DNA of 64,000 bases from Bacillaceae bacterium (GTDB lineage Bacteria; Bacillota; Bacilli; JACDOE01). A program made the translations under genes and the position numbers. This document shows, piece by piece, positions 19,926 through 25,561 of this stretch (positions within the stretch are counted from its first letter, which is position 1; the number at the start of each line of letters is the position of its first letter). The stretch lies in the NCBI GenBank assembly GCA_017656255.1, contig JACDOE010000001.1, forward strand, positions 310,001 to 374,000, written 5' to 3'. The notes under the pieces were generated by a model. That model worked only from the letters and a program-made list of their open reading frames with translations. It was not told where the DNA came from and searched no databases.

Positions 19926-20522
19926 TTACCGTGAGTAGAACTCGACGATGAGGGTTTCGTTGATTTCGGAAGGCAACTCTTCCCGGGACGGCAGTCTGAC
20001 CAGTTTTCCGGTCATCTGCTGGTCGTCCACTTCAAGATACTCCGGCAGATAGCTGCGTGCTTCGAGGGAACCCTTGATCAGTTCCATGTCTCTGCTTTTT
20101 TCTCTCACACTGATGATATCGCCGACGCTAACGCGGTAAGAAGGGATGTCTACCTTTTTGCCGTTAACCTGAATGTGTCCGTGGGATACCAGCTGGCGAG
20201 CAGCGGGTCTGGTGGGAGCAAAGCCCATACGGAACACCAGGTTGTCAAGACGGCGTTCTAAGAGAATCATGAAATTCTCACCGGATACACCGGGCATTTT
20301 GGTCGCTTCATTAAACGTGCGACGGAATTGTTTTTCGTTAACGCCATACATATGACGCAGTTTTTGTTTTTCCTGAAGCTGCAGTCCGTATTCACTCAGT
20401 TTACGGCGAGCATGTCCGTGCTGCCCCGGAGGATAGTTACGCTTCAGATCTTTTCCGGTTCCGTCAAGGGAAATTCCCAGGCGACGGGCAATTTTGTGAC
20501 GAGGTCCAGTATAACGAGCCAT
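19926..20522 (-). CDS. rpsD: 30S ribosomal protein S4
   Basis: S4 is a primary 16S rRNA-binding protein that nucleates small-subunit assembly, and in Bacillus it represses its own synthesis. The 198-residue product opens with [15 protein letters not shown], carries [16 protein letters not shown], and contains the S4 RNA-binding domain ([28 protein letters not shown]). It is monocistronic, with a structured leader and a strong promoter. tyrS and rpsD are also neighbours in B. subtilis; here the SelW-like gene lies between them. Confidence 0.98.
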
Positions 20523-20877: not shown

Positions 20878-21513
20878 ATTTTATATCTGGTGAGACATGG
20901 GGAAACAGACTGGAATCGTCGACGCCGAATTCAGGGTCACAGTGACATTCCGTTGAATGAACAGGGGAAATGGCAGGCCGAACGACTGGCAAGGCGCCTT
21001 CAGTCCCTGGAGCTGGATGCGATTTATGCCAGTGATTTACAACGGGCCTACAAGACGGCTCAGGTAGTGGGAGAAGCCCTCGGGCTTGAGGTGAGGACCT
21101 GTCCGATGCTACGCGAGCGTTGTTTTGGTCAACTTGAGGGGTTGACGCCGGATGAGATAAGAAGTAAATATGAAAGTTTTCCGATCGATCCCGCTCTTTC
21201 AGGAAAATTCGGAATCGAAACAATGGAACAGATGCAGAAGCGTCTTGTTGCACGCCTGGAACAACTGGTGACTGAACATCATCCGGGACGTATTCTGGTG
21301 GTGAGCCACGGTGGAGCGATCAATGCTTTCATTCAACATGTTGCCGGTGAAGGAATGGAGAAAGTCAGATTAGCCAATACCGCCATCAGCCATTTTGATT
21401 ATCAGGATGGCAACTGGAAAATAAACTATTTAAACGATGCCTCCCATCTGGGGGAAAGCCCGTTCGAGATCGGCCAGGTTAATCGGAAACAGCAGGGAGA
21501 TTCCAGTGCATAA
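20878..21513 (+). CDS. Histidine phosphatase family protein (unusual start)
   Basis: This is a phosphoglycerate-mutase-like phosphatase with the phospho-histidine motif LVRHGETDWN and the second catalytic His in VVSHGGAINAFI. About 210 residues is normal for the family (alpha-ribazole phosphatase, GpmB or PhoE type). The substrate is not predictable. The start is problematic: GTG 20890 would begin at V-R-H and delete the first beta strand. The family N-terminus (ILYLVRHGE) is encoded from ATT 20878, and a stop lies just upstream in frame. An ATG at 20868 is one base out of frame. Either ATT initiates or a one-base frameshift exists. Confidence 0.85.
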   Translation: MLYLVRHGETDWNRRRRIQGHSDIPLNEQGKWQAERLARRLQSLELDAIYASDLQRAYKTAQVVGEALGLEVRTCPMLRERCFGQLEGLTPDEIRSKYESFPIDPALSGKFGIETMEQMQKRLVARLEQLVTEHHPGRILVVSHGGAINAFIQHVAGEGMEKVRLANTAISHFDYQDGNWKINYLNDASHLGESPFEIGQVNRKQQGDSSA

Positions 21514-21574
21514 AAATCCCTGATAATGGTAAACATAATCCCATCTTCCTCATTATAAAAAGGGAGGCATGGGA

Positions 21575-22468
21575 TTGAAACGCCTAAATCTGATACTGGT
21601 TCTTGTGATCATGATCATGACAGCCCTGACAGGGTGTAATTTCCAGAATGACGGACAATCAGCTGAAGAGATCTATCAGACATCTCTGGAGAATTTTCTC
21701 GATCAAGACCGTTATTATTTTGACGGTTCTGCCCAGTTAAGAAGCGATTCCTTGCTGGAGCGTAACATGGTGGTCTTCAACGGCCGTGTCGCCGACCGAC
21801 GGAATGTCTGGATGAATCTGCAACTTTCCTTTCCTGATCAGGGAAGTGTGGATGAGATGCAAGTAGCGTCCAGGGGAGAACAGTTATATACACGTTTTTC
21901 CAGGGATCAGGAATGGAACCGGGTTGATGGCAATGACAGGGTCTGGAACGATGAATTCAACAACTGGAATCCTGTTTTTCATTTCAACCGGATGCAGTCT
22001 CTGAAACAGCAGGTGGAAACAGTTCGTGATCCCAACCCGGATGACGACCTGGTTCTGATACGCGTGGTGCTTGACCCGGATCTTTTAAAAAAACAGGCGG
22101 TGACCGAACTGAAGAATCAGTCCGCCGGAGAGATCAATCAACTGGAACTGAAACGACTGGGACAGAAGTTACAGATTGATGACCGGCAACAATTGAAGGA
22201 ATTCTCGCAATCATTACAGAAGCAGTCCCGTGAAACTGAGCAAATGATTGCGGATATGGCAAATACCCTGAAGACAGAAGGTGAATATATCCTCGCCATA
22301 GATACCACCAGTTATTTGCCGAAAAAGATGGAACTTCACCTTGATACCCGTTATGTTTTGGAGGGGGAGCAGGTTCATGAGAATATGAGGGTGGAGATGT
22401 ATCTGCGTGACTATAATGCGAACGTAGACATGCCGGATATTTTACAACCCGGTAATCGAAGTGAATAG
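21575..22468 (+). CDS. Predicted lipoprotein, unknown function
   Basis: The 297-residue protein has a lipoprotein signal: a basic start, a hydrophobic run (LILVLVIMIMTALTGC) and the lipobox LTGC, so it should be anchored to the outer face of the membrane. The mature part has the look of the LolA/DUF6612-like Bacillus lipoproteins (FYFDGSAQLR near the start, and IDTTSYLPKKMELHLDTRY near the end), but the match is only by feel. TTG 21575 is preferred because GGGAGG ends seven bases before it; ATG 21569 is one base from it. It lies between the phosphatase and refZ. Confidence 0.75.
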   Translation: MKRLNLILVLVIMIMTALTGCNFQNDGQSAEEIYQTSLENFLDQDRYYFDGSAQLRSDSLLERNMVVFNGRVADRRNVWMNLQLSFPDQGSVDEMQVASRGEQLYTRFSRDQEWNRVDGNDRVWNDEFNNWNPVFHFNRMQSLKQQVETVRDPNPDDDLVLIRVVLDPDLLKKQAVTELKNQSAGEINQLELKRLGQKLQIDDRQQLKEFSQSLQKQSRETEQMIADMANTLKTEGEYILAIDTTSYLPKKMELHLDTRYVLEGEQVHENMRVEMYLRDYNANVDMPDILQPGNRSE

Positions 22469-22606
22469 CAAAAGACCAAGGAGGGGGCGCCGGCTCCCTC
22501 TTTTATTATTTTTTACTGAATATTTACATGATTTCGTCCGGTGTCCGGTAAGATATGTTAAAATAATGTAGACTGCCGAACAAAAATGGGTCATGGAGGG
22601 AACAGT

Positions 22607-23227
22607 GTGAGGGCACCGGGAGAAAAATCCGAACAAAAAATCTTTCGGGCTGCGGTTAAATTGTTTGATATCAATGGTTACCATGGTACGACACTTCGGG
22701 AAATTGCCCGTGAAGCCGGTGTCAACGTTGCCCTGATTTCCTATTATTTTAAAAACAAGAAAGGGCTGCTGGAATATTTGATGATCCGGTATTTTGAGCC
22801 ACTTTTTGAACAGATGGAACAAGAAAGCCGAAATACGGATTTGCCGGTTGAAGAACAGTTGACCCGGATGCTGTTGATTCTGATCCGTTACCAGAGCCGA
22901 CATACGCAGATTACACGCATTATCCAGAGAGAATTAAGTGTGGAATCGATTCTGGCCAGAGAAATCATGAGTGTTTATCTGACTCGGCAAAAACACTTCT
23001 TTGTATCTGTTCTGGAGAGGTCAGTTGAAGCGGGCCATTTGCGGAACCTGGACATTGAATTGACTGTCATGACACTCTTGAGCATCGTTCATTATCCCTA
23101 TCTGAATGCCCAGTGGGTCAGAGAAGTGTTTTATCTGGAGCCGATGTCCGATCAGTTTGCAGCACAATTTTCAACTTACTTGAAAGAAATGGTGCTATCG
23201 CTGATTAAAAAAAATGAAGAAAAATGA
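22607..23227 (+). CDS. refZ: TetR-family regulator RefZ
   Basis: RefZ binds specific chromosomal sites near the origin and tunes Z-ring placement at the onset of sporulation in B. subtilis. The 206-residue product has a TetR helix-turn-helix at 10-55 (IFRAAVKLFDINGYHGTTLREIAREAGVN split across helices, then LISYYFKNKKGLLEYL) and an all-helical C-terminal domain. GTG 22607 is chosen because GGAGG lies seven bases upstream. Position next to an ezrA-type gene and close to rpsD reproduces the B. subtilis rpsD-refZ-ezrA neighbourhood, the main reason for choosing this name. Confidence 0.8.
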   Translation: MRAPGEKSEQKIFRAAVKLFDINGYHGTTLREIAREAGVNVALISYYFKNKKGLLEYLMIRYFEPLFEQMEQESRNTDLPVEEQLTRMLLILIRYQSRHTQITRIIQRELSVESILAREIMSVYLTRQKHFFVSVLERSVEAGHLRNLDIELTVMTLLSIVHYPYLNAQWVREVFYLEPMSDQFAAQFSTYLKEMVLSLIKKNEEK

Positions 23228-23234
23228 CGAAAAA

Positions 23235-23264
23235 AGTTCCTGTCTGGCAGGAAGTTTTTCTTTT
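23235..23264 (+). terminator. Terminator of refZ
   Basis: TTCCTG pairs with CAGGAA around a 5-base loop and is followed by GTTTTTCTTTT, eight bases past the refZ stop. Confidence 0.65.
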
Positions 23265-23317
23265 GCAGTAAAATAATATAGATAGAACGGGATTTGAAAG
23301 AAAAAGGAGATTTTATA

Positions 23318-25561
23318 ATGAATCGGATAGATATCATACATAAAATAGGGTTTGCGTTTGTTTTGTTTATGTTTTTGACCCTGACGCCGTACGGGGTGAT
23401 TGCAGCACCTTTTCCAGAGGCAAAAGAGAAACTGATTCAGGATGAGGCCGATTTACTGGATGAAACAGTCATCCGTGATCTTTCTGAACAACTGCAGGCG
23501 TATGGAGAAACCTACAAAATTGTGATCGTTGAGTCTTTTTCTCCTCTTTCCGACACGGATTATGCCCGTAGTCTGTTTGATCATTTCGAACTGGGTGAAC
23601 AATCCATTCTTTTCGTGCTGTCTGCTGAATCGAATACACTGGCTTTTGCAGCGGGATCCTCATATGACAGCGATGAGGTCAATGAGATGATTGGGGATAA
23701 AATTGAACATTATTTTGACCCTTATGCCCTGCAGCAGGAATATGGACGCGGGATTTTGCTGACGGTTCAGCAAGTTCATGAAGGACTGGCCGTTTCAGGG
23801 GAACGTACAGGCGTCTCTGTCTCTGCGGAAACCGGTGTACAGGAAGATTCATCCGCAACTTCGCTTCCATGGTGGCTGATGCTTTTATTTGTCATTCTGG
23901 CAGGATTGATTATCTATGCTGTTTACAGTTTTATTCAGCGGAGGCGTTTGTTGCAGGAGATCGATCAGGTTGATGAATGGAAAGAACAATTGAACCAGAA
24001 GTTGCTGGATTTTCAGTCTCATCCTGAGAATAAACAGCGTTTTCAACAGATTGGAAAAGCCTATGCATCGATGAAGAAAGAGCTGGATCGCATGTCCGGA
24101 ACAGATCTGTCAGAAGTGGAAGTGTTGCTGGTGGACGCAGAAGATTACTGTGACCGTCTTCGTTATAGAAAAGGGTGGGCAGCTCTCCAGCAGGCAGAGG
24201 ACATTCTGCAACAGATCGAAACCAATCTGGAAGCCCTTTATCGAAAACTGGAAAAATCAACAAATCTTCTTGAAAAGAATGTAACACTCCTTGAGGAAGC
24301 GCAACAGGTCTATGCCACCTGTGAACGTTTGCTTTCGGAGTATCGTTTTACCTACAGTCAGTCTTTTCATGAACTGAAGGACAGGCTGAATCAACTGGGA
24401 GAAAGAGTGGAATCTCTGAACAACCGGGAATCAGAGGGGGAAGACCCGGATTCCCAGTACGAGGTGTTGAATCATCTGCTTCAATCTGCTGAGCAGTTAA
24501 AAAAAGATATCCAGGATATTCCCGCTATCCGTAAAGAACTTGAAGAAGGGATTATGCGGGATATTCAACAATTGCATGATGATATTTCGACGTTTTATGA
24601 GCAGGGATTTCATCATGATGAAGATTTCAAAGAAGTACCGGGTACACTTCATGAAACGTTGCATACCTTGCGACCGTTATTTGAAGAAGGGAAAATGGCG
24701 GACGTCAGGGAACGGATGACCTCAATCAGGGATACGATTGAACATGTCTATGACCTGATGGAAGAAGCCGTCAGCCTCAAAAAAGAGACAGAGGCGTATC
24801 AGAAGTCTCTTCGGACAAAACTTAGACAGCTTGCAGAAGAAAAAGAGAAATTGGAACAACAGGTGGAATTGCTGTCTCACCACTATAATATGGACGGTCA
24901 GGACGTTAAGGAATATCTGGAGGAAGTCGCCACGGCCAGCGAAAAACTGGAAGAACAGTATCACCAGGCTGAAAAGTGGTCACAGGAGGAAAAACCTGAT
25001 TTTGAACAAGCCCTCCGTCTTTACCGGGAGATCCATGAACAAATTGAGAACGTTCTCGGTAGGAAAGAAGCCATGCTTGAAGAACTGAACCGGTGGCAGG
25101 GCGGAGAAGAGCAGGCCAGAGAAACGTGGAAACAGCTTAACGCCAGTCTGGTTAAAGCCAGACAGACATGCAGGCGTCACAATCTTCCCGGTATTCCTGA
25201 AGAACTGCGAAACAGCTTCCTGATTGCCCGATCTGCACTTGACGAAGTGAAAAAATACCTAAATGAGTCGCCGTTGCCTATGAATAAAATTGAGCATTAT
25301 TTGGAAGAAGCCCGTGAGCGGGTAGAATCGTATGTTAAAGGTGTCGAACAGGCCATATTTCACAGTGAAGAAACAGAGAAGATCATTCAGATGACAAACC
25401 GCTATCGTAGCCGTTATCCTGAAATAGAGGATCTATTATTAAAATCGGAAGAGGCCTTCCGTTCGCTTCAATACGAAGAAGCTTATCGCCTTGCCAGAGA
25501 AGCTCAGGAACGTGTTGGAAAACTTGCCGGATCGAACAAAAAGAAGTGGCTGAAAAAATAG
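23318..25561 (+). CDS. ezrA: EzrA-like septation regulator fused to extracellular TPM domain
   Basis: The 747-residue protein has a signal peptide (1-30, ending VIAA) and a TPM domain at about 36-157 (QDEADLLDETVIRDL, QSILFVLSAESNTLAFAAG, YGRGILLTVQQVHEGLA). One membrane helix (185-205) follows, then a long cytoplasmic helical region (207-747). The last part matches EzrA architecture: basic RRR after the helix, DAEDYCDRLRYRKG, LLSEYRFTYSQSFHEL and spectrin-like repeats to the end. EzrA is a division protein that restrains FtsZ at the membrane. Standard EzrA (about 562 residues) has only a few residues outside the membrane. ATG 23318 follows AAAGGAG. The refZ neighbour supports the EzrA identity. 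Confidence 0.8.
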   Translation: MNRIDIIHKIGFAFVLFMFLTLTPYGVIAAPFPEAKEKLIQDEADLLDETVIRDLSEQLQAYGETYKIVIVESFSPLSDTDYARSLFDHFELGEQSILFVLSAESNTLAFAAGSSYDSDEVNEMIGDKIEHYFDPYALQQEYGRGILLTVQQVHEGLAVSGERTGVSVSAETGVQEDSSATSLPWWLMLLFVILAGLIIYAVYSFIQRRRLLQEIDQVDEWKEQLNQKLLDFQSHPENKQRFQQIGKAYASMKKELDRMSGTDLSEVEVLLVDAEDYCDRLRYRKGWAALQQAEDILQQIETNLEALYRKLEKSTNLLEKNVTLLEEAQQVYATCERLLSEYRFTYSQSFHELKDRLNQLGERVESLNNRESEGEDPDSQYEVLNHLLQSAEQLKKDIQDIPAIRKELEEGIMRDIQQLHDDISTFYEQGFHHDEDFKEVPGTLHETLHTLRPLFEEGKMADVRERMTSIRDTIEHVYDLMEEAVSLKKETEAYQKSLRTKLRQLAEEKEKLEQQVELLSHHYNMDGQDVKEYLEEVATASEKLEEQYHQAEKWSQEEKPDFEQALRLYREIHEQIENVLGRKEAMLEELNRWQGGEEQARETWKQLNASLVKARQTCRRHNLPGIPEELRNSFLIARSALDEVKKYLNESPLPMNKIEHYLEEARERVESYVKGVEQAIFHSEETEKIIQMTNRYRSRYPEIEDLLLKSEEAFRSLQYEEAYRLAREAQERVGKLAGSNKKKWLKK

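Follow-up and report, generated by a model that had tools for sequence, protein, structure and literature searches.

A TPM domain outside the membrane in an EzrA orthologue of Bacilli, probably part of an older form of the division protein

The gene at 23318..25561 of the window (the whole 64,000-nucleotide stretch of DNA analyzed here) encodes an EzrA orthologue with a TPM domain ahead of its transmembrane helix, and we regard both this architecture and the orthology as virtually certain. Textbooks treat EzrA as a regulator on the inside only. Comparison across Bacilli, however, suggests that the two-sided protein, here called TPM-EzrA, is the older form. The explanation that we favor overall, with reasonable but not high confidence, is that the protein would be EzrA in this older form, with TPM as a docking module on the outside. 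The gene and its parts are as follows.

23304..23309, plus strand: AAGGAG ribosome-binding site of TPM-ezrA (read in the sequence)
23318..25561, plus strand: TPM-ezrA gene, 747 aa plus stop (ORF list, Pfam, AlphaFold2)
23318..23404, plus strand: signal peptide, residues 1-29, MNRIDIIHKIGFAFVLFMFLTLTPYGVIA / APFPE (sequence, hydropathy)
23405..23803, plus strand: TPM domain, residues 30-162, Pfam core 40-154 (Pfam, structure prediction, structure matches)
23804..23866, plus strand: disordered linker, residues about 163-183 (pLDDT <50 at residues 162-184)
23867..23935, plus strand: transmembrane helix, residues about 184-206, N-out (hydropathy)
23936..25558, plus strand: EzrA spectrin-like cytoplasmic domain, residues 207-747 (Pfam, profile, AlphaFold2, structure matches)
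25388..25408, plus strand: QNR motif, Q691..N694 R695 Y R697 (conserved in alignment A1 and across loci)

The gene starts at an ATG with AAGGAG 8 nt upstream; the program-made list of open reading frames instead begins the frame at a TTG at 23294. The signal peptide ends in V-I-A, a signal-peptidase-like site, and a similar site was found in 34 of 39 TPM-EzrAs by the loose pattern [AVSTG]-x-[AGS]. Residues 18-29 have low pLDDT in the AlphaFold2 model. RRR directly follows the transmembrane helix, in keeping with a positive inside, and W186 and R208 are nearly invariant in alignment A1. Hydropathy and AlphaFold2 place about 155 residues between the signal peptide and the helix, and TPM-EzrA is therefore a variant architecture rather than a textbook short EzrA. 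From hydropathy, we infer that the TPM domain lies outside and the rod inside, the orientation of known EzrA.

Both halves of the protein match curated families. Pfam matched EzrA (PF06160) at 1.3e-75 over residues 191-733 of 747 (profile 4-545 of 557) and TPM (PF04536) at 8.5e-9 over residues 40-154 (profile 1-123 of 125), and because both matches exceed the curated cut-offs, chance is excluded. In a profile built from 21 relatives, columns 214-746 matched 4uxv, a crystal structure of EzrA, at 2e-94; the profile also found the TPM protein BA41 (5anp), at 1.4e-4. Searching the PDB by phmmer with the TPM domain alone gave no significant match, whereas the profile and fold comparison did match. 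The NCBIfam EzrA equivalog models are narrower than PF06160, and TPM-EzrA, which reached at best 241.8 bits against a cut-off of 556 (NF003413), is not assigned to them; the TPM-EzrAs of Brevibacillus and of family f20 likewise fall under these cut-offs. Thus, surveys by name could miss TPM-EzrA.

Predicted folds agree with the domain matches. With relatives from named genomes included in the input, AlphaFold2 gave the full-length protein a pLDDT of 83, and the TPM domain alone a pLDDT of 91 and a pTM of 0.87. The TPM model aligned with BA41 (5anp) at Z 19.9 and rmsd 2.5 over 133 residues (VIA-align), and with 7tbr, TLP18.3, and Psb32 at Z 19.4, 17.0, and 16.8, respectively. Structure comparison found TPM-like folds in the mycobacterial respiratory supercomplex too. 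The rod model matched 4uxv at Z 13.6 over 498 residues with an rmsd of 14, the predicted arch being bent differently, and matched two repeats of Staphylococcus aureus EzrA (4uy3) at Z 12.0 over 189 residues with an rmsd of 3.2.

The locus is that of ezrA. Genes run in the order tyrS, rpsD, a histidine-phosphatase gene, a lipoprotein gene, refZ, TPM-ezrA, and mobB, with the following coordinates in the window.

19926..20522, minus strand: rpsD (ORF list, neighbor annotation)
20890..21513, plus strand: histidine phosphatase-family (phosphoglycerate-mutase-like) gene (Pfam PF00300)
21569..22468, plus strand: lipoprotein gene, weak DUF6612 match (recurrent TPM-ezrA neighbor)
22586..23227, plus strand: refZ, directly upstream of TPM-ezrA (NCBIfam NF037937, 206 bits against a cut-off of 180)
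23237..23253, plus strand: hairpin resembling a terminator, with a T tail, in the gap from refZ to ezrA (consensus match only)

Short ezrAs occupy the same rpsD/refZ locus. In family f20, refZ is followed by an apparently hisJ-like gene and then by TPM-ezrA. The genome is 98.9% complete and has one EzrA above the cut-off and one TPM gene, both of them TPM-ezrA itself; one ftsA is above the cut-off in the same genome. The first-pass annotation had taken the gene as likely the real ezrA of its lineage, located beside refZ and near rpsD, with an extracellular TPM domain and an EzrA-type spectrin-like rod. All of this is borne out: the cytoplasmic half matches EzrA by family, profile, and predicted structure, the adjacent refZ reaches its equivalog cut-off, the TPM domain is recovered by Pfam and by fold and is predicted to be extracytoplasmic, and no separate canonical ezrA was found.

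Among the neighbors, the lipoprotein gene deserves comment. A lipoprotein gene with a weak DUF6612 match recurs beside TPM-ezrA in families f1, f2, f22, f24, and f25, and the flanks that were read around short ezrAs showed none. Besides the copy in the window, a lipoprotein gene lies near refZ and TPM-ezrA in L057, L062, and L072. We consider the neighboring lipoprotein a candidate extracytoplasmic partner of TPM-EzrA.

Among Bacilli outside the crown, TPM-EzrA is widely distributed. Of the 200 Bacilli genomes that were sampled, 38 have it, mostly at the same locus; these belong to nine other families, which makes ten with that of the source genome. A search of named genomes with a three-sequence alignment found it in Brevibacillus and Aneurinibacillus. 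Pfam detects the TPM domain in 17 of 21 aligned members. Three TPM domains of family f25 are highly divergent; they were identified by a custom profile and by position, and Pfam misses those tested. In a search of 199 genomes across the phylum, other classes gave short proteins that match only the TPM-helix part and no full EzrA match, and a single-protein scan of viral contigs for TPM-EzrA gave no match. The crown with short EzrA we take, from general knowledge of EzrA, to include Bacillus, Staphylococcus, and Streptococcus; B. subtilis and Lactococcus were above the EzrA cut-off or detected in the control search. A search of the literature outside subscription journals found no paper on an EzrA with a TPM domain.

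Two further observations concern EzrA among these families. Families f7, f8, f18, and f19, some of them related to bearers of TPM-EzrA, have no EzrA above the Pfam cut-off, apparently through losses of the whole gene. In the Brevibacillaceae (L058-L071 and L094-L108), a long acidic stretch of low complexity takes the place of the middle of the rod (about profile 300-405) and splits the Pfam EzrA match in two; it seems that a spectrin repeat has disappeared or given way to other sequence.

Whether the TPM domain was gained or lost was judged from trees of the domain, the rod, and the hosts. The first-pass annotation had proposed that this lineage gained the domain, and here the evidence points the other way. 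EzrA-linked TPMs form a single clade (98/97) apart from stand-alone TPMs and YdjH-like proteins, so a single fusion suffices. Moreover, on an RpoB tree of 59 sampled genomes rooted with other classes, a single-gene species tree on which the loss counts rest, a TPM-bearing root requires five losses and no gains, and a TPM-less root requires 11 gains if loss is barred. The earliest-branching EzrA hosts on that tree have the TPM form. Family f20, whose members host TPM-EzrA, sits within the crown-side clade with short EzrAs (RpoB 100/100), and the EzrA rod tree likewise joins the f20 TPM-EzrAs with short EzrAs (98/96). Finally, one protein of the Aneurinibacillus family (L045:6588-8486, G191) begins with a signal peptide and the opening residues of TPM and then passes straight to the linker and helix, apparently a natural in-frame deletion of most of the domain, and L054 of the same family is without any part of the signal peptide or TPM.

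A late gain, in which a stand-alone TPM protein was fused to an ordinary EzrA in one or a few lineages, is the alternative, and it has points in its favor. With equal cost for gain and loss on the RpoB tree, the TPM-bearing root needs five changes and the TPM-less root six, only one step worse. An AU test with all TPM-EzrAs on one side of a branch gave a p of 0.061, so a tree that holds them together is not rejected at the 5% level. Proteins with a signal peptide, a TPM domain, and a transmembrane segment also exist on their own and could have served as donors. Against late gain stand the presence of TPM-EzrA in ten families, a TPM clade that tracks the host groups, the TPM form in the earliest-branching hosts, and short forms nested inside TPM forms with one visible deletion remnant, and we think that late gain is unlikely. 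With TPM-EzrA widespread, its TPMs in one clade, and short forms placed among the TPM forms, loss is the better account of the short form. We conclude that TPM is very likely ancestral in EzrA and the short form derived. The best supported history puts the domain in the EzrA of the ancestor of EzrA-bearing Bacilli and has it lost towards Bacillus, Staphylococcus, and Streptococcus as well as on four or more further lines. Textbook EzrA, the short form, has probably been stripped of the domain.

What the TPM domain does in EzrA is less readily decided, and what we say of function is drawn from homology. In stand-alone TPMs, DNG, R, GYGLEG, and LPDG with the following D are nearly fixed. In EzrA-linked TPMs, these residues are mostly replaced, D42 and G113 are kept, and D42 is invariant; the catalytic and metal signature expected of TPM as an enzyme (DNG, GYGLEG, LPDG) is largely absent from TPM-EzrA. 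The first-pass annotation had thought of a sensory or wall-binding module, but published proposals for TPM domains concern the assembly of membrane-linked complexes rather than binding of the wall (PMC11237479, PMC12419801). Since the signature is largely lost and TPM is a proposed assembly factor, a docking role outside the membrane follows as an inference, and the TPM of EzrA may tentatively be read as a noncatalytic docking domain, at somewhat under even chances.

Two other roles are less probable. The domain might be an active phosphatase or nucleotidase that signals the state of the wall or of a metabolite to the ring; D42 is invariant, and activity has been reported for TLP18.3 and a Bizionia TPM protein, as cited in PMC13089150 and PMC11237479. 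The phosphatase activity of TPM is itself disputed (PMC12419801), however, and residues nearly fixed in stand-alone TPMs are mostly replaced in those of EzrA, so we give this role a small chance. Alternatively, TPM might be a vestigial passenger kept by inertia while the rod does all the work. On five or more occasions the domain has disappeared while EzrA itself apparently stayed, and in L045 it is partly deleted. The fold and core residues are nevertheless retained in highly diverged lineages, and the signal peptide is retained even in L045, all of which argues for selection on TPM and leaves a passenger about as improbable as an enzyme.

By sequence and predicted structure, the transmembrane helix of EzrA tethers a secreted TPM domain to the EzrA rod. 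The QNR motif in known EzrAs mediates FtsA binding and septal localization (PMC12288466, PMC4243239), and in TPM-EzrA, by analogy, this motif would meet FtsA and the rod repeats would meet FtsZ. On the docking reading, the TPM domain, without its catalytic and metal signature, would serve outside the membrane as a docking module that recruits or holds extracytoplasmic division proteins. Assembly of the ring inside would then be spatially coupled to the septal wall machinery outside. Perhaps EzrA originated within Bacilli from a secreted TPM-helix protein, a kind common in Bacillota, that gained a spectrin-like tail and became a coupler between docking outside and FtsA/FtsZ inside; the EzrA of model organisms would be what remains after reduction, its role outside the membrane either abandoned or passed to something else. 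We offer this origin as a conjecture, a little short of an even bet.

The inside-only picture of EzrA was drawn from species that probably lost the outside half. If the ancestral EzrA spans both sides of the membrane, Brevibacillus and Aneurinibacillus are culturable systems in which to study the link between the Z-ring and the septal wall, and one may ask what partner Bacillus, Staphylococcus, and Streptococcus have lost or replaced. Moreover, the TPM domain, its activity disputed, gains a concrete setting in cell division.

Three known systems bear comparison. TPM-EzrA shares with the YdjH-type partners of PspA a signal peptide, a TPM domain, one helix, and a long coiled cytoplasmic tail. 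A family of this outline, YdjH-like, was seen at L075, L078-L082, L089, L209, and L210, and L078, L079, and L089 adjoin a PspA-like gene as read from the sequence. Four members are above the Pfam EzrA cut-off, and some "EzrA" annotations in YdjH-like families are therefore probably wrong. The common outline and these Pfam scores might suggest that the protein studied here is itself a YdjH-like coiled-coil partner of PspA, not an EzrA. YdjH-like proteins, however, have a different tail that lacks the QNR motif, form a separate TPM clade (99/93), and in several cases are encoded next to a PspA-like gene, whereas TPM-ezrA adjoins refZ and has no PspA-like gene among its immediate neighbors. Moreover, two YdjH-like proteins that were tested had no NCBIfam EzrA match, and TPM-EzrA matches EzrA end to end. 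We consider a YdjH-like identity exceedingly improbable.

As TPM proteins (PF04536), BA41, Rhom172_1776, TLP18.3, and Psb32 share with TPM-EzrA the fold of the whole domain (Z 17-20) and an extracytoplasmic placement, but EzrA-linked TPMs form a clade of their own and are without most of the catalytic and metal signature. As an EzrA (PF06160; 4uxv, 4uy3), the protein resembles those of B. subtilis and S. aureus in its orthologous locus beside refZ, its single N-out helix, its spectrin-like rod of about 540 residues, and its QNR motif. It differs in what precedes the helix: the textbook EzrA begins almost at its transmembrane helix and has almost nothing outside, whereas TPM-EzrA has a signal peptide, a TPM domain, and a linker.
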